From a virus, in IMG/VR virus record IMGVR_UViG_3300010883_021790, positions 1-21,405 of that record: a stretch of 21,405 nucleotides of DNA, one strand, 5' to 3'. The notes beneath the pieces are model-generated. The model saw only the letters and a list, made by a program, of their open reading frames with translations. It did no database searches and had not been told where the DNA came from. Position numbers and translations under genes: made by a program. Shown here piece after piece: positions 746 through 21,405 of the stretch (position 1 is its first letter; each line of letters starts with the position of its first letter).

Positions 746-773
746 TTGATTTTGCGCTTTTCTTTGCTATTAT
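746..773 (+). promoter_or_regulatory. candidate promoter for the glycan operon
   Basis: TTGATT (746-751) as -35 and TATTAT (768-773) as -10 are separated by 16 bases. The GTG start of rmlA is eight bases after the -10, so a transcript starting at the usual distance would have almost no leader. No good ribosome binding site precedes that GTG. The hexamers match consensus only partly and the region is AT-rich, so chance is possible. The position, at the only sizeable gap before an eleven-gene run, is what makes it plausible. Confidence 0.3.
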
Positions 774-781
774 ATAGAGCC

Positions 782-2493: not shown

Positions 2494-2494
2494 T

Positions 2495-3823: not shown

Positions 3824-3824
3824 A

Positions 3825-4697: not shown

Positions 4698-5407
4698 AAT
4701 TAGCAGTTCTGACAAGCCTCTTTGGAAGCCGAAACGATCTTCGCTCATTAAGCGTTTGGGAAAGGAGATATGACGTTGATTATTACGCCTTCTTAGATAG
4801 AGAGCATAAAGAAACCTTGGGGTGGAACCAAATAACGTCCCCCAGTTTCACAACTTACGCCGAATGGTCCAACAGAAGAAATGCAAAAATATACAAAATA
4901 TTACCAAATTTATTTTTACCGAATTATGACGCTTATGTTTGGGTAGACGCTTGTCAAACGGTTATTAGAGACCCTCATGCGATTTGCGAAGAGGTTCTAA
5001 AAGATAATGATATAGCTGTATTTAAACATTCTGATAGATGCTGCGTATATGATGAAGCTCAAATAGTGAGCAGATTAAAAGCGGACTCCGCCGAAACAAT
5101 AAGCAAACAAGTAGAATACCTAGAGTCAAAAAATTTTCCAAAAAATAACGGCTTATATGAATTAGCCTGCTTCGTGAGAAAAAATAATGAAATCACAAAC
5201 CAAATGGGATTAATGTGGTGGGAAATGATATGCCGGTTCTCTTCTAGGGATCAGATTTCTTTTCCGTATATTTTGTGGGAATTGAAAGATAAAATAAAAA
5301 TTTCTATTTTGCCCGGGCTTGTTAATCATTCTAGAGCAAATGATTTTTTTCAATATAACAAAACTCATAGCTCGTTAATTGACGACTGGCGCAACAAGAC
5401 TTCTTAA
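4694..5407 (+). CDS. TOD1/MUCI70-type (DUF616) glycosyltransferase-like protein
   Basis: 237 aa, overlapping the previous gene by ATGA. The pattern fits the TOD1/MUCI70 (DUF616, PF04765) family: an N-terminal strand with Leu-Thr-Ser-Leu-Phe-Gly, then Arg-Asn-Ala-Lys-Ile-Tyr-Lys and Leu-Pro-Asn-Tyr before Val-Trp-Val-Asp-Ala-Cys (Asp85). Near the C-terminus comes Ser-Arg-Asp-Gln-Ile-Ser-Phe-Pro-Tyr, resembling the RDQ-SF-Y motif of that family. Members are GT-A-like proteins in plant and bacterial glycan pathways; biochemical knowledge of the bacterial ones is thin. No signal peptide is visible. It sits between two other glycosyltransferase candidates, which supports a role in assembling the same glycan. 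The family call rests on motif memory, not a search. Confidence 0.68.
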   Translation: MKLAVLTSLFGSRNDLRSLSVWERRYDVDYYAFLDREHKETLGWNQITSPSFTTYAEWSNRRNAKIYKILPNLFLPNYDAYVWVDACQTVIRDPHAICEEVLKDNDIAVFKHSDRCCVYDEAQIVSRLKADSAETISKQVEYLESKNFPKNNGLYELACFVRKNNEITNQMGLMWWEMICRFSSRDQISFPYILWELKDKIKISILPGLVNHSRANDFFQYNKTHSSLIDDWRNKTS

Positions 5408-5408
5408 A

Positions 5409-6182
5409 GTGCATATTATAAACTTTGACAAAGAATACTTAGAGTGGGCTAGAATATTAGTTATGTCTAATTTGTTGGTTAATCAAGATGAAAAAATGTA
5501 TCTCTCCACCGTTAACTTAACGGATGAAGATATAGATGGTCTTTATGCCATTGGTGAAAATTTAATTATAGAAAACGAACTAGTTAGCCCCAAGGACGTT
5601 CCCTTGGTGGCGGAACGCATAACGGAGCATAACAAAACGGATAGATATGGTCCGCTAGATAATCGTATGCCAGAATTTATGGCTTGTAGAATTTCAAAGG
5701 TTTTTCAAAGAGCGTTCGAGAAATTTTCGAACGAAGATTTGTTTGTGTTAACTGGGGCGGATACATTTATTAACAGAAGGTTCCCCTTTAAAGAATTTGT
5801 TGATTCGCATGACGCCGCCCTTTTAACCGGGAATACTGGATCACCCCCTAGCAATCTCGCTACGGGAGTCATGTGTCTAAAGAATGTTTCACCGTGCAAA
5901 GAATTAGTTGATTTGTGGGTGAGCTATTCAGAAAACGAACAAGTCATCCGGAGCTACCGAAAGGGTTATTGGTTTTGGGACCAAGTAACCCTGAACTGCG
6001 CTGCAGAAGATATGGTTTATAAAGAAAAAATAAGAATCAAAGAACTTCCCCACTCAAGGCTTATTAATACAAACCAAGACAAAGAAGCCTATATGTGGTC
6101 TGTTCACAAATTAAATAAAGAAGGAAGAAATAAAACCTTTGACTTATGGGTGGAAGAACTAGAGAAAAGACGCTATCTTTGA
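5409..6182 (+). CDS. putative GT-A-like glycosyltransferase
   Basis: 257 aa starting at GTG 5409, one base after the previous TAA. A reading from TTG 5379 would overlap the previous gene and add ten unconserved-looking residues, so I prefer the GTG. The candidate metal site is Thr115-Gly-Ala-Asp118-Thr-Phe, where the first Asp of DxD is replaced by Gly. Later come Leu-Ala-Thr-Gly-Val-Met-Cys-Leu-Lys and Phe-Trp-Asp-Gln-Val-Thr-Leu-Asn, the layout seen in nucleotide-diphospho-sugar transferases (acceptor-side strand, then D-Q). The Pro-His-Ser-Arg-Leu near residue 225 may give the closing His. Function is inferred from fold-like motifs and from neighbours of the same kind. Confidence 0.55.
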   Translation: MHIINFDKEYLEWARILVMSNLLVNQDEKMYLSTVNLTDEDIDGLYAIGENLIIENELVSPKDVPLVAERITEHNKTDRYGPLDNRMPEFMACRISKVFQRAFEKFSNEDLFVLTGADTFINRRFPFKEFVDSHDAALLTGNTGSPPSNLATGVMCLKNVSPCKELVDLWVSYSENEQVIRSYRKGYWFWDQVTLNCAAEDMVYKEKIRIKELPHSRLINTNQDKEAYMWSVHKLNKEGRNKTFDLWVEELEKRRYL

Positions 6183-6194
6183 TAAAATAAAATT

Positions 6195-6809
6195 ATGCAA
6201 AACAAGTTAATGAAAAAGGGGGGAATTGAAATTCATTCTTCCAGCATTGTAGAATCTACCGACATAGGAGACGGAACGACGATTTGGGCATACTCTCACG
6301 TATCAGCGGGCGCTTCCATAGGTAAAAACTGCATGATAGGAGAAGGTGTCCATATAGGGAAAAATGTAAAAATTGGAGATAATTGTAAAATACAAAACCA
6401 TTCTTTACTTTATGAAGGTGTGATTTTAGAAGACGATGTGTTTATTGGGCCAAGCGTAATTACTACGAACGATTTATACCCTAGGGCGTTTGGCGAATGG
6501 ACCGAGCGCTTCGCTAAAACATTAATCAAAAGAGGAGCGGGTGTCGGGGCGAATAGCACAATAGTTTGCGGAACTACTTTGGGTGAATTTTGCATGGTAG
6601 GTGCGGGCTCTGTTGTGGTGGATGATGTTATGAATCAATCCTTGGTAAAGGGTAGCCCCGCAAGACATACAAGATTTATGTCTGACATAAAGGATAGTCC
6701 TTTCCACGGAAGCTACAGATCTGACGACCCAAACGACTCTAAAGGAAAAAGTACAATTTGCACCGCTGACCCCAACCCTATGAACAAAGATACAAAAATG
6801 TTTTTGTAA
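6195..6809 (+). CDS. sugar N-acetyltransferase, left-handed beta-helix (WlbB/FdtC-like)
   Basis: 204 aa. Residues about 14-160 carry hexapeptide repeats (Ile/Val-Gly-x4 periodicity: IGDGT, IGKNCMIGEGVHIGKNVKIGDN, IGPS) typical of trimeric acyltransferases. The loop Asn-Asp-Leu-Tyr-Pro-Arg-Ala, then Arg-Gly-Ala-Gly-Val-Gly-Ala-Asn-Ser-Thr-Ile-Val-Cys-Gly and Gly-Ser-Pro-Ala-Arg, match enzymes that acetylate the 3-amino group of nucleotide sugars using acetyl-CoA (WlbB/WbpD and FdtC/QdtC). A polar 45-residue tail follows the helix. ATG 6210 is an alternative start. The expected partner aminotransferase is not in the window, so the amino-sugar substrate must come from the host or from genes outside it, or the enzyme has another acceptor. 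Confidence 0.87.
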   Translation: MQNKLMKKGGIEIHSSSIVESTDIGDGTTIWAYSHVSAGASIGKNCMIGEGVHIGKNVKIGDNCKIQNHSLLYEGVILEDDVFIGPSVITTNDLYPRAFGEWTERFAKTLIKRGAGVGANSTIVCGTTLGEFCMVGAGSVVVDDVMNQSLVKGSPARHTRFMSDIKDSPFHGSYRSDDPNDSKGKSTICTADPNPMNKDTKMFL

Positions 6810-6830
6810 ACCCTACCTGCTCAGAAGAAA

Positions 6831-7562
6831 ATGTCAAAATTTAATCCAGTAGTTTTAATTACTCAGCCTAGAGAAATCACCGAAGTGATAAACTCTATGA
6901 AAAAATATATAAAATACCCCAAGGTATGGTTCAAGGGATATACTGAGCCCGAAGTTACTAAAGAAATAAATAGATACGTAAGAAATACTAATTATAGTCA
7001 TTATATTATATGCGCGGATGACGTTATTGTTAACGAGCAGGTTTTTGAAGAAATGGATAAATATGTTAATATATTTTCTCCCCACCATGAAACATCACGA
7101 GATATAGTTACTGGGTGGTGCAACTTAGATATTGATCATATAGACGGCAGCTTAAAGCGCGACAGCAACATAGCAGAAAAAGAGATAACCTTGGAAAATG
7201 GGATTTGGCCGTTAACGAGTGATTACGAATTTTCTTCAATACAGAACATTTTGTCTAGAAAGGGTTTGATTCAAACATACCTATCTTCTTTTGCTCTGTC
7301 TTGCGTGCCTAGAGAAACTTTAATTGGATACCCGCTCACTACTTACAAAACTCCCGGTTTTCTGTTTGAGAGAACGCCTCGCGCTCAACCCCGTGGATGC
7401 TGCTCTGATCACGAATTTTCTCGAAGGATCACCGAAGACGGAATAAAAATTTGGACTACGCCAAAAATGTTTATAAAACACCTGAGAGAAGAGCGTGACC
7501 CCTTCCTTAAGAAAAATTGGATCGTAGGAAAAGTTGAACCAACTATAACCGAGGAGTTGTGA
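6831..7562 (+). CDS. putative glycosyltransferase, GT2-like
   Basis: 243 aa. ATG 6831 follows a purine-rich AGAAGAA stretch that could serve as the ribosome binding site. Residues 57-66 read Tyr-Ile-Ile-Cys-Ala-Asp-Asp-Val-Ile-Val, a hydrophobic strand ending in an acidic pair (Asp63-Asp64) like the metal site of GT-A enzymes. Near the C-terminus, Cys-Ser-Asp193-His-Glu195-Phe-Ser-Arg-Arg followed by Gly-Ile-Lys-Ile-Trp and Ile-Lys-His217-Leu matches the catalytic E/D-x-E-F-x-R and closing His of GT2-type transferases. There is no membrane segment. It lies between the acetyltransferase and rmlB, separated from rmlB by 57 bases. Acceptor unknown. Confidence 0.62.
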   Translation: MSKFNPVVLITQPREITEVINSMKKYIKYPKVWFKGYTEPEVTKEINRYVRNTNYSHYIICADDVIVNEQVFEEMDKYVNIFSPHHETSRDIVTGWCNLDIDHIDGSLKRDSNIAEKEITLENGIWPLTSDYEFSSIQNILSRKGLIQTYLSSFALSCVPRETLIGYPLTTYKTPGFLFERTPRAQPRGCCSDHEFSRRITEDGIKIWTTPKMFIKHLREERDPFLKKNWIVGKVEPTITEEL

Positions 7563-7619
7563 TAGTCGGGGGTACAAGGATTTAACAAGTTTTCCCGTCT
7601 TTAAAAAGTGCAAATTATT

Positions 7620-8576
7620 ATGAACTTATTAGTTACAGGTGGATGTGGGTTTATCGGTTCTAACTTTATAGGACACGTTATAGAAAAAAAGCGAGTACAA
7701 AAACTTGTCAATGTCGACTGCCTTTCTTACGCCGCTTCACTCGGCAACGTTAGGTCTTTCGGAAAAAACCCCAAGTATCTTTTTGAAGAATATGATTTAT
7801 CAGACTATGGAAAAGTGTACGATACCTTTTACAAGCACGACATAACACACGTAGTCCACCTAGCTGCAGAAACACACGTAGATAACTCTATATTAGACGC
7901 TGACGCGTTTTTATCGTCAAATGTACTCGGGACACACAGCTTACTTAAAGCGGCCTTAAAATTCAAAACAAAGCGATTTCACCATGTATCAACAGATGAG
8001 GTATATGGCCACCTGAACGTAGGAGGCGATAAGTTTTCGGAGGATACCCCATACGACCCAAGAAACCCATACTCCGCGTCAAAGGCTGCTTCAGATTTTT
8101 TGGTAAGATCTTATTTTCATACGCACAGCTTACCTGTAACGATTTCAAACTGCAGCAACAATTACGGCCCAAACCAACACAAAGAAAAATTTATACCGAC
8201 CGTTATTAATTCGTTACTAAACGAGGCAAGAATACCCGTGTACGGCAAGGGAGATAACATTAGGGACTGGATTTACGTAGAGGATCACTGTAGCGCTATA
8301 TGGAAAATTTTGACAAAAGGAAAGCTGGGAGAAACATATCTAGTAGGCTCAAATTGTGAAAAAACAAATTTAGAAATAATTCACGAAATTTGTAAAATAT
8401 TAAATAGGAGTCCTGATGATTACGTAAAGTTCGTAGAAGATCGCTTAGGGCATGATTTTAGATACGCCATTAATAATTGTAAAATATCTCAAGAATTAAA
8501 ATGGAAACCTAAGGTCAAATTAAAACATGGAATTAAAAAGACAATAGATCATTATGCACGAATCATTGATAGATGA
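7620..8576 (+). CDS. rmlB: dTDP-glucose 4,6-dehydratase
   Basis: RmlB, 318 aa, converts dTDP-glucose to dTDP-4-keto-6-deoxyglucose with bound NAD. ATG 7620 gives the family N-terminus MNLLVTGGCGFIGSN with the dinucleotide loop at residues 6-13. An in-frame GTG at 7608 is possible but unneeded. Catalytic residues are visible: Thr125-Asp126-Glu127 in STDEVYG (124-130), and Tyr151/Lys155 in YSASK. HLAAETHVD, NNYGPNQHKEKFIP and GDNIRDWIYVEDH are also diagnostic. The length is slightly below the usual 340-360 aa. It is separated from rmlA by six genes, yet the two must work in series. The end overlaps the next gene by 23 bases. Confidence 0.95.
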   Translation: MNLLVTGGCGFIGSNFIGHVIEKKRVQKLVNVDCLSYAASLGNVRSFGKNPKYLFEEYDLSDYGKVYDTFYKHDITHVVHLAAETHVDNSILDADAFLSSNVLGTHSLLKAALKFKTKRFHHVSTDEVYGHLNVGGDKFSEDTPYDPRNPYSASKAASDFLVRSYFHTHSLPVTISNCSNNYGPNQHKEKFIPTVINSLLNEARIPVYGKGDNIRDWIYVEDHCSAIWKILTKGKLGETYLVGSNCEKTNLEIIHEICKILNRSPDDYVKFVEDRLGHDFRYAINNCKISQELKWKPKVKLKHGIKKTIDHYARIIDR

Positions 8577-9531
8577 TGTAAGGCTGCACGTTGACGAAAT
8601 CTCCCCGAACGAAGATAAGACTCTTGTTAGGGGGTGGTGTGCGTCAGATTCGGCTAATGAAATAGAGTCCGTAAGATTAATTGCTGGCAAAAAGTTTTCT
8701 TTTTCTGGGGATGTTTCGCAAGAGAGAAAAGACGTCTACGAGTATTATGGAAACAATGATAAGTATCTAAATTCCGGTTTCTCTATAAATGTCACTAAGA
8801 AGCTAAAGGACAAAGAAGATATATTTTTACAAGTTTTACACAAAAAAGAATGGAAAAATGCCCAGAAACTTGAGGGGACAAACATCTATAAAATTTACGA
8901 ACCAGAATCAATAAATTTTAAAATTAATAGCGAGCTTGACATAAACGCAATTGTCGTAGACAACTTCTACGAGAATCCAGAGGAAGTAAGAGAATTTGCA
9001 TTACAGAGCGGTTCATTTAATTCCCACTTAGAATATCACAAAGGCCAGAGAACAGAGGAGGTCTGGAGACCAGAGGAAGTCAAACAGTCTCTAGAAAAAC
9101 TTTTGCTAAGAAAAATTACAAACTGGGACAAACATGGAGCTAACGGCGTTTTTCAATTCTGTACATCAGAAGACCCTATCGTTTACCATGTAGACGCCCA
9201 ATCCTACGCGGCGGTTGTGTATTTAACTCCTGACGCCCCGCCAGAGTGCGGCACCACTTTTTACAGGAGCAAGGTAAATGGCTTAAGAGAAGCGCCAACG
9301 AAGGAAATCGCTAAAGAATTAAACAAAACAGAAGAGCATTTAAACGCTGAAATTTTTAGCGCTGGGTTCTATGACAAAACTAAATTCGAGACGGTAGATG
9401 TTATCGGGAATGTCTTCAATAGGCTTGTCGTCTGGGACGCGAGATTAATCCATGCTGCCTCAGAATACTTTGGATCAGACATGCAAGACTCTAGGCTTTT
9501 CCACATGTTTTTCTTCGATACGGAGGAATAA
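8554..9531 (+). CDS. 2OG-Fe(II) oxygenase-like protein with an N-terminal beta domain
   Basis: 325 aa in two parts. Residues about 130-325 look like a non-haem iron 2-oxoglutarate dioxygenase of the DUF6445 kind. They hold a Phe-Tyr-Glu-Asn-Pro opening, iron ligands His212-x-Asp214 and His300, Arg314 as the likely 2-oxoglutarate ligand, and Val-Val-Trp-Asp-Ala before the distal His. Residues 1-120 form a separate probably beta-sandwich region, with Val-Arg-Gly-Trp near residue 27, an Arg-Lys-Asp-Val-Tyr-Glu-Tyr stretch and Ser-Gly-Phe at about 75. That pattern recurs in proteins of sugar clusters but I cannot name it. The start lies 23 bases inside rmlB. It may hydroxylate a sugar, lipid or protein side chain; the substrate is unknown. 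The TAA overlaps the next ATG (TAATG). Confidence 0.72.
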   Translation: MHESLIDDVRLHVDEISPNEDKTLVRGWCASDSANEIESVRLIAGKKFSFSGDVSQERKDVYEYYGNNDKYLNSGFSINVTKKLKDKEDIFLQVLHKKEWKNAQKLEGTNIYKIYEPESINFKINSELDINAIVVDNFYENPEEVREFALQSGSFNSHLEYHKGQRTEEVWRPEEVKQSLEKLLLRKITNWDKHGANGVFQFCTSEDPIVYHVDAQSYAAVVYLTPDAPPECGTTFYRSKVNGLREAPTKEIAKELNKTEEHLNAEIFSAGFYDKTKFETVDVIGNVFNRLVVWDARLIHAASEYFGSDMQDSRLFHMFFFDTEE

Positions 9532-10217
9532 TGAAACTAGCAATCCTTCAGCCTAATTTTTTCCCGTATAGATCTTATTATGATTTAGTGAAAAAGGTTG
9601 ATAAGGTTGTCTTCCTTGATGATGTATATTACAATAACAAAAGCTGGGTGAACAAAACCCTGCTAAAAGTAAGATCAAAGGATTTTTACTTTAGGATACC
9701 GATAAACAACTACAAACAGCTAAATATAAAAGACGTCAAAATTAAAAATGAAAAATGGAAAAAGAACTTTTTAAAAATGATTAACCTTGAGTATAAATAT
9801 TGCCCCAACTTTTCACTAGTGTTTCCTGTTATCGAAGAAGCAATAAGTTTGCCGACAGACAGTATTGCTCACCTTTCTGCTTACAGCGTTTTTAAAATAT
9901 CTAGTCTTTTTAAAGACAATACAGAATTCGCCTTTTCCTCGATTGACTATCCGAACGTAAAGGGGTCTATAGAAGATAAAATTTTAACTATCTGCAAAAA
10001 AGAAAAAGCTTCAATCTATTATTCTCTATTCAAAACCCCGTACAATGCAGAAAAATTCCTTAGAAATGACATAAAAGTAAGTAATTTCGTGTCTTATGAA
10101 GGGAGGTGCTCGATAATGGACGACTTAATGACAAACCATTCTTACCATCACTTCCTTGAAAAAGAGTGTAATCTTAGGCAGCATGAACAATCACGAGCCT
10201 TCGAGCCAACAGAGTAA
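9531..10217 (+). CDS. WbqC-family protein
   Basis: 228 aa, the usual length for the WbqC family (PF08889). The N-terminus (AILQPNFFPYRSYYDL, then Val-Asp-Lys-Val-Val-Phe-Leu-Asp-Asp-Val and Lys-Ser-Trp-Val-Asn-Lys) is the family signature. Ser-Ile-Met-Asp-Asp-Leu-Met near the C-terminus also fits. WbqC proteins occur in O-antigen and other deoxysugar clusters, often beside aminotransferases. Their reaction is not well established. GGAGG four bases before the ATG is a good ribosome binding site, and the gene overlaps the oxygenase by TAATG. It is the last recognisable glycan gene, and its 3' end overlaps the PhoH gene by 35 bases. Confidence 0.87.
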   Translation: MKLAILQPNFFPYRSYYDLVKKVDKVVFLDDVYYNNKSWVNKTLLKVRSKDFYFRIPINNYKQLNIKDVKIKNEKWKKNFLKMINLEYKYCPNFSLVFPVIEEAISLPTDSIAHLSAYSVFKISSLFKDNTEFAFSSIDYPNVKGSIEDKILTICKKEKASIYYSLFKTPYNAEKFLRNDIKVSNFVSYEGRCSIMDDLMTNHSYHHFLEKECNLRQHEQSRAFEPTE

Positions 10218-11517: not shown

Positions 11518-11546
11518 TTTAAAAAAAAACAAAAACATGGTATAAT
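11518..11546 (+). promoter_or_regulatory. candidate promoter, divergent intergenic region
   Basis: A perfect TATAAT at 11541-11546 lies eight bases before the ATG of the zinc-ribbon gene. TTTAAA at 11518-11523, 17 bases upstream, is a weak -35. No ribosome binding site is seen between the -10 and the ATG, so the mRNA would be nearly leaderless. On the other strand the same stretch reads AAATAAATA (about 11511-11519), close to the T4 late-promoter core TATAAATA, and points toward the possible minus-strand gene. Both readings come from an AT-rich stretch. Confidence 0.45.
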
Positions 11547-11554
11547 AATCATAT

Positions 11555-11938
11555 ATGAAAAAGTATTGTTTTGATTGCGGAGCAAAGATGGAGTTCTCGG
11601 TTAAAGAGAAACCAAAATTTTGCCCGCAGTGTAGAAAACCGCTAGAATCTTCGCTTGGTACTCGCTGCGAAGAGGGCGCGATCGAAGAAGACTTCGATGA
11701 TGTGACGGCGGTTAACATAGGGGATAACATGCAGGGCTTGGATTTTGACCTAGATAACGAGTCTCTAAAAGTTAAGAAAGACACTCTCCAGTCTCTTATG
11801 GGTACGTTAGATAAAGCGAGCGACAAAAATTCGTCATCCGTAGATTTTCCGACCCCCTCAAAAGAAGAGGTCCTAGAACAATACAAAAAAGAGGCCGGAA
11901 CGTTAAGGGATCATAGGCGTTCTACAGAAAATGAGTAA
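11555..11938 (+). CDS. zinc-ribbon protein, 127 aa
   Basis: An N-terminal zinc ribbon is formed by Cys5-x2-Cys8 and Cys23-Pro-Gln-Cys26. The rest, from about residue 40, is strongly acidic with few hydrophobic positions and is probably disordered, apart from a possible helix near Ser-Lys-Glu-Glu-Val-Leu-Glu-Gln-Tyr-Lys-Lys. A ribbon with an acidic tail could contact RNA polymerase or the sigma factor made by the next gene. The two genes overlap by eight bases (ATGAGTAA), so their products are probably made in step. The specific role is unknown; a transcription coactivator comparable in position to T4 gp33 is only a suggestion. Confidence 0.72.
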   Translation: MKKYCFDCGAKMEFSVKEKPKFCPQCRKPLESSLGTRCEEGAIEEDFDDVTAVNIGDNMQGLDFDLDNESLKVKKDTLQSLMGTLDKASDKNSSSVDFPTPSKEEVLEQYKKEAGTLRDHRRSTENE

Positions 11939-12641
11939 GAATGAGAAGAAAGACACAACAGCTAGAAAGCTCACATTTGAAGAAAGCATTGGTTTTATTG
12001 ATCAAGAAATTATTAAAAGAAGGGGCAAGTGGAACCTAACATCACTTCACTGGATGGATTATGATGATGTTTCGCAAATTATAAGAATTCATATACATGA
12101 AAAATGGCACTTATATGACGCAAGCAAACCATTGGGCCCTTGGGTAAACAGAATAATTTCTAATCAGATAAAAAACCTTATAAGAAACAATTATGGAAAC
12201 TTTAGTAGACCATGCTTAAAGTGTGAAGCGGCAAGACCAAACAATGGGTGTGATATATATGATTCTCAATGCGCTGAGTGCCCACTATACGCTAAGTGGG
12301 AAAAAACTAAAAAATCAGCTTATGAGATTAAAATTCCCCTAGCCTTGGAAGATCACGCACACGAAGTAAGCCCGGTTGGTTTTGAAGATAATATAAACTT
12401 AAATAAGTTTGCCGCGAATTTACATAAAAAAATGAAGACCAACCTAAAGTCAAACGAATGGATTGTTTACAAAGGGTTATTTATTGACAATAAGACGGAA
12501 GAAGAAGTGGCAAAAAAAATGGGGTTCAAATCAAACGAGAAAAATAGAACCCCCGGTTATAAACAAATTAAAAATTTAAGAAAAAAAATTATAGAAAAGG
12601 TCAAAAAATGCTTAAAAAGGGATGAGGTAGACTACTTATGA
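11931..12641 (+). CDS. phage sigma-70-like factor with a Cys-rich insertion
   Basis: 236 aa. Residues about 35-92 look like sigma region 2: Asp-Tyr-Asp-Asp-Val-Ser-Gln-Ile, an aromatic/His stretch, then Gly-Pro-Trp-Val-Asn-Arg-Ile-Ile-Ser-Asn-Gln-Ile-Lys-Asn-Leu-Ile-Arg, the promoter-melting helix pattern. Residues about 170-230 hold a region-4-like helix-turn-helix with Thr-Glu-Glu-Glu-Val-Ala-Lys-Lys-Met-Gly-Phe. Between them is a Cys cluster (Cys95, 98, 107, 114, 117) that may bind zinc. The likely role is directing host RNA polymerase to late promoters, like T4 gp55. It overlaps the zinc-ribbon gene by eight bases and the SET gene by ATGA. The family call is from motifs; promoter specificity is unknown. 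Confidence 0.75.
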   Translation: MSKNEKKDTTARKLTFEESIGFIDQEIIKRRGKWNLTSLHWMDYDDVSQIIRIHIHEKWHLYDASKPLGPWVNRIISNQIKNLIRNNYGNFSRPCLKCEAARPNNGCDIYDSQCAECPLYAKWEKTKKSAYEIKIPLALEDHAHEVSPVGFEDNINLNKFAANLHKKMKTNLKSNEWIVYKGLFIDNKTEEEVAKKMGFKSNEKNRTPGYKQIKNLRKKIIEKVKKCLKRDEVDYL

Positions 12642-13270
12642 AAATACACGATAAATTAGCTAATGGAATATATCTTGGAGCTTCAGCAATTCCGGGCGCT
12701 GGAGTAGGGGTATTCACGGGGGTCCCAATTGGAGCAGGAACACCCACGTGCGAATACAAGGGAGAAACATTCGATAGCTTGGATGTTCCTCGCCAACGAT
12801 ACGAATATACGCGGCAAAGCGGGTTCTCAACCCCACATCTTATATATACGCAGGCCCATCCGCCGTCAGGATTATACATAGAATCGCACCCCGCTCTTTG
12901 TAAGGCGGAAATGGGGTTAGGCTGTTTTGTAAATGACGCAAGAAATCACACCAACAGAGAAAAAGCCCTCGAAGAAAAGCAAGACCCGCAGGAGAAGCTA
13001 AACATGTCAATAGAAGCGGGGTACAATTGTACTTATTTCATAGTTCCAAATGAGCCTGTTATTTATTTAACAGCGATAAGGAACATAGAGGCCGGGGAAG
13101 AGCTGCTTGTAAATTATGGAGATAAGTACTGGGGCCCCTTTGCTGAGGCGGAGGAAGTGCAAAAAAAAAGGGAAGAAGCCCTGCGGGAAAAAGAACAAGG
13201 GGAAAAAACAGAACAAAAAAGCGAAAAAGAAAGCCTAGAAGAAAAAGAAAATGAGCTCGTCTCAACATAA
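12638..13270 (+). CDS. SET-domain protein (putative lysine methyltransferase)
   Basis: 210 aa. Residues about 10-165 match a SET domain, which transfers methyl from S-adenosylmethionine to lysine. The pieces visible are Gly-Ala-Gly-Val-Gly-Val-Phe-Thr with Ile-Gly-Ala-Gly and Glu-Tyr-Lys-Gly-Glu near the start; Gly95-Cys-Phe-Val-Asn99-Asp-Ala-Arg-Asn at the NHS position; and Ile-Glu-Ala-Gly-Glu-Glu-Leu-Leu-Val-Asn159-Tyr160-Gly161 with the Tyr expected for catalysis. The pre-NHS and post-NHS segments are separated by an insertion of about 45 residues. From about residue 170 the tail is a Lys/Glu-rich probable coiled coil. It is coupled to the sigma gene by ATGA and overlaps the next gene by 20 bases. 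The target is unknown: host RNA polymerase, a ribosomal protein or a phage protein are all possible. Confidence 0.83.
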   Translation: MKIHDKLANGIYLGASAIPGAGVGVFTGVPIGAGTPTCEYKGETFDSLDVPRQRYEYTRQSGFSTPHLIYTQAHPPSGLYIESHPALCKAEMGLGCFVNDARNHTNREKALEEKQDPQEKLNMSIEAGYNCTYFIVPNEPVIYLTAIRNIEAGEELLVNYGDKYWGPFAEAEEVQKKREEALREKEQGEKTEQKSEKESLEEKENELVST

Positions 13271-14348
13271 TTCCTTAGACTCGGAGCAGAAGGAAAAAGT
13301 TCTTAACGAGTGGAACTCTAGGTTAGAAAATCCTCCTGCTTTATTAGAGTTAATAAGGATAGCTTACCCCGGTAGACCAGATCTAGACGGCAGGAGCAAA
13401 GAGGGTAGAGAAATTAAAGCGTTTCTTGCAACAAGAAAAATAAAAGCTCACGGCGCTCACGAATACCAAGCTAAAGAAAAAATAAACCTCACAGAAGAAC
13501 AAAAACAATTCGTAGAAAGCAATGCTTCCATGATGAACGGAAGAGAGATGGCTTGCGTTATATTCGCCGATAACGAGCTTACGAATCTCCATCAAGAAGT
13601 TCGGTCTGTGAACGACCACATAAAATCTTTAGACTTAGAGCCATACGAAAACCCTAATGAGGTTCCCAATTCGCAATATAAGCCGCCAAAAACGTTTGAC
13701 AGAACCGTTAATACGGTAAATAAATATGTTAATAACGAAATCAATAAAAACAAAATCACGAGCTCTGTTAAAAAGAATATCGATTCTTTGATAAATTATT
13801 TAAGTACTTACAGATTTAGTCATCAAATTAATACCTACTCATCACAAACAGACAGAGAGCTGTTCGAAAGCAGCTTCGTAAGGTATACTCACGACAAGCC
13901 AGATTTATCTCAAGAAGAGGTAGACCAATACATAGTCCTTTCTACAGAAGTTATTATTGCTGCCAGCATCCAAAGAAGGACAGAAAGACTTCAGACGTTA
14001 CTTGATACGGCGGCAGAAGACACGGAAGGAAGGCGTATCGCCATGGCTCTTGTAGATGCCATCAGCTCCGCTCAGACAGAGTACAACCAATGTATCAACA
14101 GGCAACAAAAACTGCTGGACTCCTTAAAGCAAAAAAGAAGTGACGTACTTAAAAACAAAATCAAGGAAAACGCAAGCGTACTAAACCTTGTTCAACTATG
14201 GAAAGAGGAAGAGTCTAGAAAAAAACTGATACAGCTGGCAAACATAAGAAAGAAAGCCGTGTCAGAAGAAATGGAAAACCTAACTGACATGGACGAAATT
14301 AAATGCAGAATTATGGGGCTAAGCAAGGGGGAGGTTCTAGATGAGTAG
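13251..14348 (+). CDS. helix-rich phage protein, possible small terminase
   Basis: 365 aa, no family recognised with certainty. Residues about 18-120 are a tandem of helical segments. Asn-Pro-Pro-Ala-Leu-Leu-Glu-Leu-Ile is followed by Gly-Arg-Glu-Ile-Lys-Ala-Phe-Leu-Ala-Thr, then Leu-Thr-Glu-Glu-Gln-Lys-Gln-Phe-Val and Met-Asn-Gly-Arg-Glu-Met-Ala-Cys-Val-Ile-Phe, which looks like helix-turn-helix DNA-binding modules. Residues about 230-365 are charged and strongly helical, probably coiled coil. A DNA-binding N-terminus with an oligomerising coiled coil, two genes before the large terminase, is the usual layout of a small terminase, but this protein is longer than most. A DNA-binding regulator is equally open. 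It overlaps the SET gene by 20 bases and the nuclease gene by ATGAGTAG. Confidence 0.7.
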   Translation: MSSSQHNSLDSEQKEKVLNEWNSRLENPPALLELIRIAYPGRPDLDGRSKEGREIKAFLATRKIKAHGAHEYQAKEKINLTEEQKQFVESNASMMNGREMACVIFADNELTNLHQEVRSVNDHIKSLDLEPYENPNEVPNSQYKPPKTFDRTVNTVNKYVNNEINKNKITSSVKKNIDSLINYLSTYRFSHQINTYSSQTDRELFESSFVRYTHDKPDLSQEEVDQYIVLSTEVIIAASIQRRTERLQTLLDTAAEDTEGRRIAMALVDAISSAQTEYNQCINRQQKLLDSLKQKRSDVLKNKIKENASVLNLVQLWKEEESRKKLIQLANIRKKAVSEEMENLTDMDEIKCRIMGLSKGEVLDE

Positions 14349-15300
14349 TGTTATTGTCCCAGACCCAACTTGTCAAGCTTGCCAAAAACAATTCGAAACT
14401 CACAGGCAATTGCACGCCCATCTCAAGGCTCACGATTTAAGGGTTGTGGGATATTATCAAAAATATTTCCCAAGGCATGATCTCCGTGATAATAAGATTA
14501 TTAAGTATAAAAGCTTAGAGCAATATTTTTCAACTGACTTTAACTCTAGAACCAACCTCCGTCTTTGGCTTAAATCAGCGACAAAAGAAGAAGCGGTAAC
14601 TTACTGCAAAAACATTCTATTAAAAAGAAAAAACGACAAGGGGCTTGTCTACACCCCAACACAAGTAGAGCTTAGAACAATACTTTCGCCGCCCATTCAG
14701 TATCTACGAGAGATTTTAGACGGGTATTATAAGGTATGCGAAGAAATGGGGTTCAAAAACAAATATCAATTACCGACAGAAATAGTTGAAGGCAAGGAAT
14801 ACGCAAAGCCGCAATATTCTATACATATAGACACAAGAGAACAGCTTCCCTTAAAGTTTGATGATTACACCACTAGGTCCACGACGCTATCAGTGGGGGA
14901 CTATACTTTTAGTGAACCGAAATTAACATGCAACTGCTATATAGAAAGAAAGTCTTTGGCTGATTTTATTTCTACCATGAGTGTTAAAAATTTAGAAAGA
15001 TTTGAAAAAGAAATAACAAGAGCAAAAGAAGAAGATATTAATTTAATTGTTTTAATTGAGGATACATTAAGCCACGCCGTCAGCTTTAAATTTTTGCCGC
15101 ATATATCTAAAAAAATAAAAGCAACGCCAGAGTATATATTTCACAACGTAAGAGAACTAATACAAAAATACCCACACATTCAATTCCTCTTTGTCGGAGG
15201 AAGGAAAGAAGCCAAAAGGGTTATTAAAAAAATATTCTTTAGTGGGTGCATATATAAAAAAATAGATCTTCAATACGCGTACGATACGAAAGTTTTATAA
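14341..15300 (+). CDS. C2H2 zinc-finger / ERCC4-type nuclease
   Basis: 319 aa. Residues 11-31 are a canonical C2H2 finger, Cys-x2-Cys-x3-Phe-x5-Leu-x2-His-x3-His. The C-terminal half, from about residue 155, is an ERCC4 (XPF-family) nuclease: Asp164-Thr-Arg166-Glu167, Val-Gly186-Asp187-Tyr188 and Ile-Glu202-Arg203-Lys204-Ser, the D-n-GD-n-ERK active site. ERCC4 nucleases cut branched or flapped DNA near junctions. The middle (about 45-150) is helical and unassigned. GGGGGAGG seven bases before the ATG is the best ribosome binding site in this stretch. It overlaps the upstream gene by eight bases and the terminase by TAATG. A role in clearing branches before packaging, like T4 endonuclease VII, is inferred from position. 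Confidence 0.88.
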   Translation: MSSVIVPDPTCQACQKQFETHRQLHAHLKAHDLRVVGYYQKYFPRHDLRDNKIIKYKSLEQYFSTDFNSRTNLRLWLKSATKEEAVTYCKNILLKRKNDKGLVYTPTQVELRTILSPPIQYLREILDGYYKVCEEMGFKNKYQLPTEIVEGKEYAKPQYSIHIDTREQLPLKFDDYTTRSTTLSVGDYTFSEPKLTCNCYIERKSLADFISTMSVKNLERFEKEITRAKEEDINLIVLIEDTLSHAVSFKFLPHISKKIKATPEYIFHNVRELIQKYPHIQFLFVGGRKEAKRVIKKIFFSGCIYKKIDLQYAYDTKVL

Positions 15301-17126
15301 TGTGGTACTGCCCTGAAAAATACGAAACAGAGCCGGAAAACATCAATAAAAAGATGCTTGAATTGGAAGGCTTTTTATCTGATAGAGAAGCTAAAATAAC
15401 TTTAGCAAGGTTTATGCAAGCCAATCTAGGTTTCACCACCGAGTTGATATCAGGAATTAAGCTTGCGACATATCAAGAAGTGACTCTTCGCGGTATGATG
15501 AATAGAAATTTTACGATGTGTGTGTGGGGCCGTGGTTGCGGTAAAACTTTTATAGCTTCGGTTTTTTGCTTTCTCCAGTGCATATTTAACCCCGGGACCA
15601 AGATACTTGTTGCTGGACCAACATTTCGTACTGCAAGATTTATATTTAGCAATTTAGAGAAAATGGTAGAATCAAAAGGTGCAGAATTGCTAGCTCAATG
15701 TTTCGGCGCAAAAATAAAACGTAATGACCAATTCGAGTGGTCTATCAACGGGGGAACCATAACAGCCATTCCCCTTAACGGAGAAAAGATCCGTGGTTTT
15801 CGCGCTAATGTCCTTTTGTTAGATGAGTACCTTTTGTTACCAGAAGACTTAATCAATACGGTTCTTATGCCATTCTTGGTAGCGCCTCAAAACATGAAAG
15901 AGCGTATTGAAATTAGAGAAACGGAAGATAAGCTAATTGAATCGGGCCACATGACAGAAGAGGAAAGAATGATATTTGATAATGATTCAAAAATGATTGC
16001 CCTGTCCTCGGCGTCATACACATTTGAAAATTTGTACAGAACTTACAAAGATTGGGGGAATCATATTTACGACGATAAAAAAAGCAATTCCTCGTATTTC
16101 ATTTCGCAGATGGGGTACGAAGCATTACCCGAGCATATGATTGATCAAACTATTATTGAGGCCGCCCAAGACGGAGGAACTTCCAACGCTTCTTTTCAGC
16201 GGGAATACTGCGCTATGTTTACGGACGGAAGCGATAGTTATTTTAGCGCTATCAAAATGCATGCATGCACTATTCCAGACGGAGAAGAACCAACAACCTT
16301 AATAAAGGGGCGTCCAGATAAAAAATATGTAGTAGGCATTGACCCTAACATGAGCGATAGCCCAAGCGCTGACTTTTTCGGTATAGCTATAATGGAAATT
16401 GACGAAGAAAAAGAAACCTCCACGCTGGTGCATAATTACGCTGGTCTAGGTAATTTAAATAAACACGTACAATATCTTTATTACATACTAGAAAACTTTG
16501 ATCCAGTTTTTATTTCCGTTGATAATGCTGGGTCAGACATGTTTCTTGACGCGGCTAACAACTCTAAACTTTTCTTAGATAATAGAATTAATTTAAAAAC
16601 AATTGAATTCGACTCTAACAAAGAAGGGGTAGATTATACCAAACAAGTGAGAGATCTTAAAAGAGCATATAATAAAGAAAATAGGCAAATAGCATTTAAC
16701 CAAGTCTTCTCTAGCGATTGGATAAGGAAAGCTAACGAGCTTCTTCAGGCTAATATTGATTATAAAAAAATATGGTTTAGTTCTAAAACCACAGCTAATG
16801 GCTCCGAATTCGACAAACAAAGCACTTACAAAATTAATTTAAAGCAAGTTGGCGAAGATAATTTGGGAATGTTCATAGAAACTCAAGATGATCTAGTATA
16901 CCAAGTTAAAAGGCAATGCGCGTTAGTAGAGGTAAAAACCACGGCAAGGGGAACGCAAACATTTGACCTGCCGCAGCATTTAAAGCGAAATACCAGCGCG
17001 GGCAGAGCAAGAAAAGATAATTATACTGCATTATTACTTGCAAACTGGGCGACAAAATGTTACTTTGATATGCAAAATTATAAGTTGAACGAAGGAACTG
17101 CGACATTTACCCCAAGAATGGTGTAA
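15300..17126 (+). CDS. terL: terminase large subunit
   Basis: 608 aa, the packaging motor ATPase and headful nuclease. The Walker A is Gly77-Arg-Gly-Cys-Gly-Lys82-Thr83, an unusual form with Cys. Walker B is Val-Leu-Leu-Leu-Asp175-Glu176-Tyr, and Leu-Ser-Ser-Ala-Ser follows as motif III. The RNase-H-like nuclease has Asp348 (Gly-Ile-Asp-Pro-Asn), Asp408 (Ser-Val-Asp-Asn-Ala-Gly) and Asp573 (Lys-Asp-Asn-Tyr-Thr-Ala-Leu). Length and order agree with the gp17-type large terminase of myophages. The start overlaps the nuclease stop (TAATG), so it lacks its own spaced ribosome binding site. The gene is followed by a 46-base A/T-rich gap and then the portal gene, the expected packaging order. The class of DNA end it generates cannot be read from sequence alone. 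Confidence 0.95.
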   Translation: MWYCPEKYETEPENINKKMLELEGFLSDREAKITLARFMQANLGFTTELISGIKLATYQEVTLRGMMNRNFTMCVWGRGCGKTFIASVFCFLQCIFNPGTKILVAGPTFRTARFIFSNLEKMVESKGAELLAQCFGAKIKRNDQFEWSINGGTITAIPLNGEKIRGFRANVLLLDEYLLLPEDLINTVLMPFLVAPQNMKERIEIRETEDKLIESGHMTEEERMIFDNDSKMIALSSASYTFENLYRTYKDWGNHIYDDKKSNSSYFISQMGYEALPEHMIDQTIIEAAQDGGTSNASFQREYCAMFTDGSDSYFSAIKMHACTIPDGEEPTTLIKGRPDKKYVVGIDPNMSDSPSADFFGIAIMEIDEEKETSTLVHNYAGLGNLNKHVQYLYYILENFDPVFISVDNAGSDMFLDAANNSKLFLDNRINLKTIEFDSNKEGVDYTKQVRDLKRAYNKENRQIAFNQVFSSDWIRKANELLQANIDYKKIWFSSKTTANGSEFDKQSTYKINLKQVGEDNLGMFIETQDDLVYQVKRQCALVEVKTTARGTQTFDLPQHLKRNTSAGRARKDNYTALLLANWATKCYFDMQNYKLNEGTATFTPRMV

Positions 17127-17172: not shown

Positions 17173-19251
17173 ATGAAGGAAAAAAAAGAAACCTCCAAAA
17201 GCGCTGCCCCCAAAAAGCCAAGAAAGCCAAGGGCATCCACAAAAAAGGAGCAGCACGCCGTTGAGCCATTAATGACATCAACGGCGTCATACACGTATGA
17301 ATCTGTCTCTCATACGGACTCAGGAGTTTCAACCTACAGGAGAAATAAATCGGGCAACATAGAAAGGACCGACAAATTTTCAAATATTGAGAAAGGTCTT
17401 ATTCCGTTTAAAACCTACACTGGATCAGGACAGAGCGGAATTTCTATTAGGGACGCTATAATTTTATGCCAAAAAGCGTATTACAATTTCTCTGTATTTA
17501 GGAATACAATTGACTTGATGACAGAGTTTTCTTCGAGTGATATTTATTTTGAGGGAGGAAGCAAGAAGTCCCAAAAGTTTTTCGAATCTCTTTTTAAAAA
17601 GATAAATGTTTTTGATTTGCAAGATAGATTTTTTAGAGAGTATTACAGGTCGGGAAATGTTTTCTTCTACAGGTTTGACGCAAAGCTGAAGCCCGCTGAC
17701 ATCAAAAAGATAAGTCAAACATTTGGCGCAAAAGCTAAAACCGTAAAGATTCCATTTAGATATGTAATTTTAAATCCAGCAGATATACAAATATCAGGTT
17801 CGTTAAATTTTAGCCAAGCAAGAAAATATCACAAAGTACTTACTGACTACGAACTGGAGAGGGTAAGAAATCCCAAGACAGAAGAAGATAAAGAAATATA
17901 CGACGCGCTTGATCCTGCTACAAAAAAGAAAATTAAAGGCAGCCCCCTTTCTAACGCGGTCCTTATGCTTCTAGACGCAGATAGATTTCACGCGGTATTC
18001 TACAAGAAACAAGACTACGAACCCTTTAGTGTCCCCATGGGGTATCCAGTTCTTGAAGACATAAACCATAAGGCTGAACTAAAAAGAATGGATATGGCCA
18101 TAACAAGAACCGTTCAGCAAGCTATTCTTCTTGTTACCATGGGGACAGAGCCAGACAAGGGTGGAATAAATCAAGAAAATCTGCTAAAAATGCAAAACCT
18201 TTTCGAGAACCAATCCGTGGGAAGAGTCCTCATAGCAGATTACACTACTGATGCTAAATTTGTAATACCACAAATTGGAGATATTTTAGACCCCAAAAAG
18301 TACGATGTTGTAAACGCTGATATTAATTCTGGATTAAACAATATGCTTACCGGCGTTGATACAGGGGGGGAAAAATTTGCCAATATATCCTCAAAGGTTG
18401 AAGTTTTTATAGCAAGGTTAAGACAGGCTAGATTATCTTTTTTAAATGATTTCCTTACACCTGAAATAAAAAGAATTTCGAAGTCTCTCGGTTTTAAAAA
18501 TCATCCTACCCCAAAATTAAACGAGGTTCTCTTAAGAGACAATACAGAAAAATACAGGGTCTACACTCGCATGGCCGAACTAGGACTGTTAACTCCAGAA
18601 GAGCTTTTCGAGGCTCTCGATACAAACAGATTACCGAACAAAGAAACCTCAATGGATTCGCAAAGGAAATATTTAAACGACAGAGATGAGGGGCTTTACT
18701 TTCCGCTGGTTGGTGGATCACCCGTAGAGAACCCGGCCATGGAGGGTTGGGTGCCTCAAGAAATCGCCCACCCAGAGCTACAAAAAACAAGCACACCCGC
18801 CCCGAACAAAGAAGCTGCGCCAAAAAATACTGGCCCCAAAAAAAGCCAAACAACTTCCCCCAACGTAGGGAGACCCTCTGGAACCAAGGGAATTCCTCAG
18901 AAAGAAAAGGCGGCTGCAGAAGAGAACTTTAGTTTCGAAAGCTTAAAACAAAATATTGTAAAATCTCAAGATTTAGAAAAACTAGTTGAAAAAGAGCTTA
19001 GAAAAAAACACAAGAAAACAAGGCTTACTAAAAATCAAAAGGAAGTAGCAACAACAATTAGCCACATAATTATTTGCAACGAAACCCCCGACAAGTGGGG
19101 AGAATGTGTGGCAAAATATTGCGAAAAACCAGTAGATCAAAACGCAGAACAAGTTAGACAAGTAGAAGATATCGCCATAAAACATCAATTAGATACTTTT
19201 ATGGCAAGCATACTATTTCATAGCACAATAGAGAACGAAAAAAATGAGTAG
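17173..19251 (+). CDS. portal protein with C-terminal extension
   Basis: 692 aa, the ring at the capsid vertex through which DNA enters. Characteristic parts: the basic N-terminal tail (residues 1-30, Lys/Pro-rich); Tyr157-Tyr-Arg-Ser-Gly-Asn-Val-Phe-Phe-Tyr-Arg-Phe, the portal wing strand pattern; Asn-Pro-Ala-Asp-Ile-Gln-Ile; a long helix around 311 (Thr-Arg-Thr-Val-Gln-Gln-Ala); and Gly399-Glu-Lys-Phe-Ala-Asn before the C-terminal helices. Residues about 535-585 are a Pro/Lys/Thr/Ala linker, followed by a 105-residue helical domain that I do not recognise and that is additional to a usual portal. Position directly after terL supports the call. The TAG overlaps the next gene by eight bases (ATGAGTAG). 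Confidence 0.85.
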   Translation: MKEKKETSKSAAPKKPRKPRASTKKEQHAVEPLMTSTASYTYESVSHTDSGVSTYRRNKSGNIERTDKFSNIEKGLIPFKTYTGSGQSGISIRDAIILCQKAYYNFSVFRNTIDLMTEFSSSDIYFEGGSKKSQKFFESLFKKINVFDLQDRFFREYYRSGNVFFYRFDAKLKPADIKKISQTFGAKAKTVKIPFRYVILNPADIQISGSLNFSQARKYHKVLTDYELERVRNPKTEEDKEIYDALDPATKKKIKGSPLSNAVLMLLDADRFHAVFYKKQDYEPFSVPMGYPVLEDINHKAELKRMDMAITRTVQQAILLVTMGTEPDKGGINQENLLKMQNLFENQSVGRVLIADYTTDAKFVIPQIGDILDPKKYDVVNADINSGLNNMLTGVDTGGEKFANISSKVEVFIARLRQARLSFLNDFLTPEIKRISKSLGFKNHPTPKLNEVLLRDNTEKYRVYTRMAELGLLTPEELFEALDTNRLPNKETSMDSQRKYLNDRDEGLYFPLVGGSPVENPAMEGWVPQEIAHPELQKTSTPAPNKEAAPKNTGPKKSQTTSPNVGRPSGTKGIPQKEKAAAEENFSFESLKQNIVKSQDLEKLVEKELRKKHKKTRLTKNQKEVATTISHIIICNETPDKWGECVAKYCEKPVDQNAEQVRQVEDIAIKHQLDTFMASILFHSTIENEKNE

Positions 19252-21405
19252 ATTTAGACATTCAGGCTTACGAAGTACTCAGTTAAATATAAGGAGGGAC
19301 TCTGCTTATTTAACGAGCAATGACGGCCTGCTTATCTCCGCTCCAATGTCTCACCAAAATATTGTTATAATGGACGTTTTGGTAATGTCTGGATCTGGGA
19401 AATTATGTACTGGCGCCAGCGGAACGGGCGTGCATCTTTGTAACATAAACCAAGGATACAATCACCTCAGGGCTCCTATTTCTGTTCCTAATGGCCAAGC
19501 TGTTTATACGGATGTTTTGGGGGGAGACGTAACGGTTACCTACGCTATTGGGCCTAATTTCTCCGAGACAGCTGGCGCGGGGGGCGGATCAGGAACAACG
19601 CAGCCGCCAGCTGGAGCAACCACCACGACAACCACCACGACAACCACCACGACAACCGCTACCCCCAGCTCAATGACAATGACGTGGGCGGCCGCAACCT
19701 CTTCTATTACAGAGGAAATTGGCAACCAAATTTTATCCATTACCGTTAACAGAAGTGGTTCTAGTGGCACAGCCACCGTTAATTGGAATACGACCGACGG
19801 AACCGCGACTTCAGCTGGATCACAAGCAGATTACGTAGATCCTCAGGCCGGCGCAAACCCGGCTGGCCCCATAACTTTCGAAGCGGGAGAAACATCCAAG
19901 ACTGTGGCTATAGAAATAACAGCGGCGAATTACGGAGGCTGGGATGAAGATGACGAGTTATTTACTGTAACACTTTCAAATCCAAGTTGGTCGGCTGGCT
20001 CAGTTACACTACCAAGCCCAATACATACAGTAACCATTGCTAATTTAACGACGACAACACCATCGTCATCTCAGGAGTGTGGAGTGGGGTATAGTTGCGT
20101 TTGTTCAGTCTATGCTTGTGGCATGCCATACGATTGGATGAATGGAGAATGGGTCTGGTCTACAACCGGAATTGACAGTCATCCTATTTATCATAGAGAA
20201 GACCCCAATAATTCAAATCAATTCGGATTGCTAAACTATAACTCGCCGAATTTCCCCGGTGGTTATGGGTGGAATATTTATTATGATATATGGGATGTCG
20301 GCCTACAGGCTTACTTAGGGAAAACAGATCTTCATAAGAACACTGCGGGAGGAGATTGTCCGTATACTGTCTTGGCTGACAACAGGTGGGTTCATGATGC
20401 TAACATTTTTGAGTTATCGTCAATTAGCGACACCAGCATAACTTGCCCGACAACCACAACTCTCGCGCCAGAAGCGGAGACGTATTTTGCTTGGAGCACT
20501 ATAGTCGCTTATTACCTTAATGAAGTGGCTGGGGCTAACGTTGTTCTGACAGTTACCCGATCAGGCAATACCTCTACGGCGGCAACATTAAGTTATACGA
20601 CGGCTAATATTACTGCTGTAGAGTGGGCCGACTATCTTCCAGCAAGTGGGACACTCAATTTCGCCGCCGATGAAACAAGTAAAACTATTACAGTCGACGC
20701 TAAAGCTGACTCTACGATAAATGGCGACGAAACGTTTAAGGTAGTGTTAAGTAGTCCAACTCAAGTAGGCGGTCCTGCCTCTATCATATGGCCTTCCGAC
20801 GAAAACGGAAGTTGTACGGGTTCCAACTCTTGCGTCAATATGCCAATGGCAACAGAAAATATCATAACCATGATCGAAGCTCATGAGGTTACCGTAGGCT
20901 TTACGCTTTCGTCTTCAATAGTTACGGCAGAGGGAAATTCTGGTTCGGTTGTGCACTCCATCAATGTTGAAAGAGACTCAGACCCCACTGGTGTTATTTA
21001 TGGAGGTACGGTAACTGTTGATTATGCAACAAGTGATGCAACCGCTACCACGGCAAACGGAGATTATGACCATGTTAATGGCACCTTAACTTTTGCTTCT
21101 CAAGTTGCTAATCAGGTCATTGCCGTGACTATAAATGGTGATACAACATTTGAAAATAACGAATATTTCAACGTTACTCTGTCAAACCCAAGCATTAATG
21201 TATCCGGGGTAACGGCGAAAATCGTTGGGTCAGCAGTGCATGAAGTGCAAATTACAAATGACGATACTACTACTACTCCCACTCCTCCTACTACGACGAC
21301 TACAACTACCGCCGCAGCAACGACGACTACAACTACCGCCGCAGCAACGACGACTACAACTACCGCCGCAGCAACGACGACTACAACTACCGCCGCAGCA
21401 ACGAC
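19244..21405 (+). CDS. Calx-beta multidomain structural or adhesin protein, 3'-truncated by the window
   Basis: Open from ATG 19244 to the window edge (720 codons), so the C-terminus is missing. Residues 1-115 are a compact beta-like domain with no signal peptide, consistent with a virion protein rather than a secreted one. A Thr run at 126-138 leads to a Calx-beta domain at about 145-266. Next come a Cys/Trp/Tyr-rich domain at about 279-401 (Cys279, 372 and 401 visible) and Calx-beta domains at about 412-544 and 548-674. Their shared pattern is a Gly-rich Thr strand, an Asp-Tyr turn, a Thr-Phe strand, then Glu-x-Phe-x-Val-x-Leu-Ser-x-Pro. Calx-beta domains often bind calcium and occur in adhesins. 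The end is a Thr/Ala repeat. It overlaps portal by eight bases. A decoration or fibre role is inferred from position. Confidence 0.82.
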   Translation, partial: MSRFRHSGLRSTQLNIRRDSAYLTSNDGLLISAPMSHQNIVIMDVLVMSGSGKLCTGASGTGVHLCNINQGYNHLRAPISVPNGQAVYTDVLGGDVTVTYAIGPNFSETAGAGGGSGTTQPPAGATTTTTTTTTTTTTATPSSMTMTWAAATSSITEEIGNQILSITVNRSGSSGTATVNWNTTDGTATSAGSQADYVDPQAGANPAGPITFEAGETSKTVAIEITAANYGGWDEDDELFTVTLSNPSWSAGSVTLPSPIHTVTIANLTTTTPSSSQECGVGYSCVCSVYACGMPYDWMNGEWVWSTTGIDSHPIYHREDPNNSNQFGLLNYNSPNFPGGYGWNIYYDIWDVGLQAYLGKTDLHKNTAGGDCPYTVLADNRWVHDANIFELSSISDTSITCPTTTTLAPEAETYFAWSTIVAYYLNEVAGANVVLTVTRSGNTSTAATLSYTTANITAVEWADYLPASGTLNFAADETSKTITVDAKADSTINGDETFKVVLSSPTQVGGPASIIWPSDENGSCTGSNSCVNMPMATENIITMIEAHEVTVGFTLSSSIVTAEGNSGSVVHSINVERDSDPTGVIYGGTVTVDYATSDATATTANGDYDHVNGTLTFASQVANQVIAVTINGDTTFENNEYFNVTLSNPSINVSGVTAKIVGSAVHEVQITNDDTTTTPTPPTTTTTTTAAATTTTTTAAATTTTTTAAATTTTTTAAAT
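19619..19654 (+). repeat. 12-base tandem repeat coding Thr run
   Basis: Three perfect copies of ACCACCACGACA, in frame inside the Calx-beta gene, encode twelve Thr residues, and the next codon is also Thr. The tract joins the first domain to the first Calx-beta domain as a flexible linker. Each copy is a multiple of three, so gain or loss of copies would keep the frame. Confidence 0.9.
21293..21405 (+). repeat. 27-base tandem repeat coding Thr6-Ala3 units
   Basis: Four full copies of a 27-base unit (21293-21319, 21320-21346, 21347-21373, 21374-21400) plus a fifth partial copy at the window edge, all identical as read. Each codes six Thr and three Ala. The tract follows the third Calx-beta domain and a short Thr/Pro lead-in, and continues beyond the window. 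Its composition is that of a mucin-like stalk. The perfect identity suggests recent copy-number change. Confidence 0.92.

Follow-up and report, generated by a model that had tools for sequence, protein, structure and literature searches.

The window analysed here is a stretch of viral DNA of 21,405 nucleotides, which makes up its entire public record. Since it carries a terminase, a probable portal and PhoH, we assigned it by gene content to a tailed phage, of which it would be a 21.4-kb fragment. Its genes include a run in the order zinc-ribbon protein, sigma factor, SET protein, GX, ERCC4 nuclease, terminase and portal. The features of this run, together with three motifs inside the SET gene that were located by alignment, are listed below.

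11555-11938, + strand: 127-aa protein with an N-terminal zinc-ribbon-like motif (weak zinc-ribbon matches), first gene in the run
11931-12641, + strand: sigma-70-like factor with a Cys-rich insert (Sigma70_r2), conserved in 76 loci; its stop overlaps the start of the SET gene
12638-13270, + strand: SET-domain protein of 210 aa with an ATG start (Pfam SET, AF2 model)
12701-12763, + strand: N-terminal SET motif, G22-x-G24-x-F26 and E39-Y40-K41-G42, with the pocket residue Tyr40
12932-12937, + strand: N99-D100, counterpart of the N-H of motif III (NHS), pairing with the N-H of EZH2
13097-13132, + strand: E154-E-L-L-V-N-Y160-G161-D-K-Y164-W165, with the putative catalytic Tyr160 and the C-terminal motif, aligning with 'ELFFNYGD' of EZH2
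13251-14348, + strand: GX, a 365-aa protein whose gene is the universal downstream gene and overlaps the SET gene by 20 bp
14341-15300, + strand: ERCC4-type nuclease (PF02732 E=1e-10, phrog_3490 E=6e-17) with an N-terminal C2H2-like zinc-finger match
15300-17126, + strand: terminase large subunit (PF03237 E=1.5e-8, phrog_2 E=1.5e-23)
17173-19251, + strand: probable portal with a Lys-rich N-terminal tail (weak Phage_portal and phrog portal matches, and its position after the terminase)

A promoter-like site at 11518-11546, before the zinc-ribbon gene, was found by pattern only, and the totals for such sites are near the shuffled expectation. The sigma protein matched Sigma70_r2 with 24.4 bits against a cut-off of 24 and the whole-sigma model TIGR02937 with E=4e-7 and 29.7 bits against a cut-off of 42.9; it had no match among the PDB sequences. 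Profile searches with GX gave no confident family match. The ERCC4 nuclease adjoins the terminase in the relatives that were read, and its sole match in the phage database is from a haloarchaeal virus. The upstream half of the fragment holds a cluster of sugar-nucleotide and glycosyltransferase genes (746-10217), whose members are an RmlA-like NTP_transferase, RmlD-like, asparagine-synthase-like and glycosyltransferase-like proteins, a hexapeptide transferase, an RmlB-like dehydratase, DUF6445 and WbqC; its make-up differs among relatives, whereas the block from sigma to terminase is constant. At the other end, a long ORF (19244-21405) runs off the fragment; its repeat domains, Calx-beta-like by eye, are joined by poly-Thr linkers, for which perfect tandem repeats with 12-bp and 27-bp units code.

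Related viral records reach 148-166 kb, and searches of the phage collection with the terminase and the sigma protein found no close isolate. The sigma gene argues for a bacterium as the host. Sampling codes attached to some of the related contigs suggest that the family is marine. When 12 relatives were searched for the T4-type major capsid, no match was obtained and the control was silent too; psbA was absent from the same 12 records, most of which are fragments, with the control working. There is thus no sign of a cyanophage in the 12 relatives, mostly fragments, searched for psbA.

The initial annotation had read the gene at 12638-13270 as a SET-domain methyltransferase in a phage. Its 210-aa product comprises a core of about residues 1-165 and a helical, K/E-rich tail of about 45 aa. 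The match to the Pfam SET profile PF00856 extends over residues 22-161 and the entire profile (1-105 of 105), with E=4.9e-10 and 40.2 bits, while the curated cut-off is 22.4 bits. By using a profile of 41 sequences against PDB, 159 distinct sequences were matched, with EZH2 at the top (E=2.7e-21). The depth of the input mattered for the AF2 prediction: 8 sequences gave a pLDDT of only 68, and we used instead the model from 41 sequences, which has a pLDDT of 95.1 and a pTM of 0.84. This model aligned with the structures of SET8, EZH2 and SETD7 over 118-133 residues, with Z of 12.3-13.3 and rmsd of 2.4-3.3. PHROGs has no family for the protein, and the plasmid search with SET returned no match. 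The full-profile Pfam match over the cut-off and the confident SET-fold model bear out the initial reading; the SET core, on whose presence that reading hung, is there in the predicted structure, the SAM pocket being judged by the conserved residues. We concluded that 12638-13270 is a true, apparently intact SET-domain gene in a phage.

Residue conservation was assessed in an alignment of 41 sequences, 17 of them from the phage family and 24 from relatives outside it. G22, G24, F26, N99, D100, Y160, G161 and W165 are invariant in this alignment. G42 is unchanged in 17/17 phage family members, and position 40 is Y in all 17 and Y or F in the other relatives; Y40 would occupy the position of Y245 in SET8. 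By alignment to EZH2, Y160 is the predicted catalytic tyrosine. At motif III the Asn is kept and the His is replaced in 41/41 sequences, so that N-D stands in place of N-H. In some SET enzymes, activity is abolished when the motif III His is changed. Decay was considered as the cause of N-D and ruled out: each of the 24 sequences from outside the phage family has N-D as well, and it is therefore a feature of the group. Unlike most bacterial relatives, the phage family has inserts that flank N-D on either side, as well as the K/E-rich helical tail; the insert region near the motif III position often shapes the substrate choice of SET enzymes.

The replacement of N-H by N-D could also be read as a sign that the fold was kept for binding or sensing SAM and not for methyl transfer, and in the literature found no activity has been shown for any phage SET. 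We consider such a protein quite improbable, because Tyr160, Tyr40, the GxG and N99 are invariant in 17/17 phage members and the gene is under purifying selection (see below). As the canonical N-H pair is replaced, lysine methyltransferase stays a likely assignment: judged by its residues and fold, the product is very probably such an enzyme, and we are reasonably confident that it is an active one.

The nearest cellular relatives found are single-domain SET proteins of Bacteroidota, such as L122 from Agriterribacter humi and L163 from Flavobacterium; they come from one motif-based scan, by which others may be missed. They share with the window protein the SET fold, N-D, the Y-G-x-x-Y-W end and the single-domain build, but are only 23-32% identical to it, have YGK where it has YGD, and are without long inserts around N-D, so that most are about 130-165 aa in length as compared with a 165-aa core plus tail in the phage. 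The genes flanking the chromosomal copies are locally conserved in at most 9 loci and gave no clue to a substrate. In a SET tree built by a quick method from 142 columns, with support from that method only, a branch (SH-aLRT 92) separates the phage family from the neighbouring Bacteroidota SETs, and the family is not nested inside the bacterial N-D clade. Single N-D SETs are also borne, in other gene contexts, by the huge phage LR756502 and by freshwater or other phages (L194/L199 and L197/L198); these fall on the Bacteroidota side of the tree.

Several other known proteins resemble the window protein. The Stenotrophomonas phages Moby, Mendera, Marzo and Yut2 and ORF62 of phage Ps15 have phage-borne single SET domains as well; those of the Stenotrophomonas phages were met through an N-H type query only and lie outside the family alignment. 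SET8/KMT5A, EZH2 and SETD7 share with it the SET fold, the catalytic Tyr and the GxG positions; they are eukaryotic, with 20-31% core identity and other pre- and post-SET parts and substrates. The window protein gives a partial match, well below the family cut-off, to the NCBIfam model of Legionella LegAS4 (E=0.008; L122 reaches E=8e-12), and a LegAS4 structure is among the SET fold matches; LegAS4 is a multi-domain injected effector, unlike the single-domain SET of the window. Chlorovirus vSET (PBCV-1) is likewise a small viral single-domain SET enzyme; it acts on histone H3K27 of the algal host and is packaged (PMC7019647). Whereas the host of vSET has histones, that of the window phage, bacterial by its sigma gene, would be without such histones, and an H3K27 activity would therefore have no obvious target here.

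The SET start and the sigma stop share the four letters ATGA (12638-12641), just as had been claimed. The same 4-bp overlap (ATGA, once GTGA) was found in 14 of the 16 non-redundant SET-bearing loci, and the other two have gaps of 7 and 9 bp. It is not peculiar to this pair of genes: as drawn, overlaps occur at 12 of the window's 19 junctions (two of them resting on uncertain TTG starts), including those of SET with GX and of GX with ERCC4. The sigma gene was found both with and without SET among relatives, and in those without it the start of GX takes the place of the SET start (mostly -4 to +5 bp). The 4-bp overlap is thus ordinary packing in an operon. The coupling of SET to sigma that the initial annotation had proposed holds as far as the physical overlap goes; a functional link does not follow, because operon overlaps are the rule and sigma persists without SET, and any link in timing would apply equally to the 365-aa GX, the ERCC4 nuclease and the terminase. 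Co-expression of SET with the sigma-to-terminase operon is likely.

These observations bear on the role that had been suggested, as a guess, for the enzyme: timed with the phage sigma factor, it would redirect expression by methylating the host's RNA polymerase, one of its nucleoid proteins or a ribosomal protein. The adjoining sigma gene, with ATGA overlaps in most SET-bearing loci, is in favour of such a host takeover, and precedents exist outside phages: H3K27 is trimethylated by chlorovirus vSET, which has been implicated in the shutdown of host transcription (PMC7019647), and in vitro the archaeal Go1-SET adds methyl groups to MC1-alpha, a DNA-binding protein (PMC3980110). However, overlaps of this kind are common in the operon, relatives that have no SET still have sigma, and the terminase in the operon points to middle-to-late rather than early expression, as we infer. 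No Lys column was found to track SET presence in sigma, the zinc-ribbon protein, GX, ERCC4 or terminase, a comparison of low power that bears on sigma and not on host proteins. On balance we regard this role as unlikely. Sigma itself was considered as a substrate and set aside, since no sigma lysine follows SET presence, at the same low power.

To place the gene in its family, we compared the loci of relatives. The sigma protein is encoded at 76 viral loci, with GX and ERCC4 following in all, and about 75 related viral contigs all have the block of sigma, GX, ERCC4 nuclease and terminase. SET has a single site in this block, between sigma and GX, and the flanks are intact in relatives that are without it; SET is therefore an accessory insertion into the sigma-to-terminase operon. 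One clade of 22 rows in the sigma tree (SH-aLRT 91) contains every SET-bearing row, 15 in number, and 7 rows without SET; presence and absence require 5 changes in all. One gain and about four losses would be one parsimonious reading that fits these counts, which by themselves cannot give the direction. One contig (L040:5391-6648) has a tandem pair of divergent SET genes following sigma.

The dN/dS of the SET core is about 0.06-0.26, for pairs with estimable dS only, and that of sigma, GX, ERCC4 and terminase is 0.02-0.09. The SET gene is under purifying selection, and its evolution, several-fold faster than that of its neighbours, fits relaxed constraint as well as adaptation. A gene that was gained, duplicated and lost, with a patchy distribution, fast evolution relative to its neighbours and a tandem copy in L040, is what may be expected of a counter-defence enzyme which methylates and disables a host anti-phage protein. 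We think this decidedly improbable: accessory genes of operons behave alike for many reasons, this one sits in a packaging operon and not in an early accessory region, and no defence protein was identified.

Other SET genes exist in the same phage family. Contigs of L055, L071 and L087 have different SET genes elsewhere, of the N-H type where the motif was seen; such genes lie at L211:3300-3674, L212:3093-3527, L213:2753-3889 and L214:2989-3357. This suggests that SET genes were acquired repeatedly within the family. Identical SET genes with the classical NHSSDPN motif were also observed in L009-L011, which are of an unrelated phage type, among genes for small Lys-rich proteins. SET proteins occur in several unrelated phage groups.

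The start of the portal-like protein (17173-17250) is a histone-tail-like stretch rich in Lys, Pro and Arg, KSAAPKKPRKPRASTKK; this stretch is variable among relatives and occurs with or without SET. If the enzyme acts within the run in which it lies, a late structural or packaging protein could be the substrate, for example the Lys-rich tail of the portal, whose methylation would protect, stabilise or tune the particle. The place of SET in the sigma-GX-ERCC4-terminase-portal run and the Lys-rich N-terminal tails of portals across the family are consistent with this, as are two portal columns that are Lys mostly in SET-bearing phages; but the tail is equally present in SET-less phages, and the two columns, uncorrected for column number and relatedness, are possibly due to chance. 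We put it forward as a tentative possibility.

Three of the alternatives considered above concern the substrate only and are therefore compatible with the explanation we prefer, to which we give fairly strong credence as a whole: SET would be an acquired accessory SAM-dependent lysine methyltransferase that is expressed with the operon. The small single-domain enzyme would bind S-adenosylmethionine and move methyl groups to protein lysine. It would have been acquired once by the ancestor of one sub-clade of these presumably marine tailed phages, the apparent source being the pool of N-D SETs that is now seen in Bacteroidota chromosomes and some large phages; transfer from Bacteroidota to phage and the reverse both fit a SET tree of few columns. 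Inserted between sigma and GX, it would have diverged with inserts of its own and been lost several times, being dispensable for the core cycle and yet under selection in the phages that have it. Expression together with the sigma-terminase operon is probable, and our guess at the likeliest class of substrate is a middle-to-late phage or host protein, such as a basic nucleic-acid-binding or particle protein.

A SET gene in a phage is not in itself new, contrary to what the initial annotation implied. Earlier annotations of SET exist for Stenotrophomonas phage Moby, for proteins of uncultured Caudovirales (BFVD) and for ORF62 of phage Ps15 (PMC9025141). In the open-access literature found, no activity, function or substrate is given for any phage-encoded SET. 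The novelty lies in the clade: a separate group of phage proteins with a known enzyme fold, maintained by selection, carrying an insert of its own and established in a packaging operon.

It is conceivable, though rather doubtful, that the targets of this phage-specific clade of lysine methyltransferases are particle or late-transcription proteins of the phage itself, or else a protein of host defence or transcription, and that protein lysine methylation is a regulatory layer of infection which phages acquired repeatedly. Pairs with and without the gene at one locus, together with a conserved active site, make the question of protein methylation by phages directly testable. If SET acts on transcription, particles or defence, protein lysine methylation would join the tools of phage takeover.
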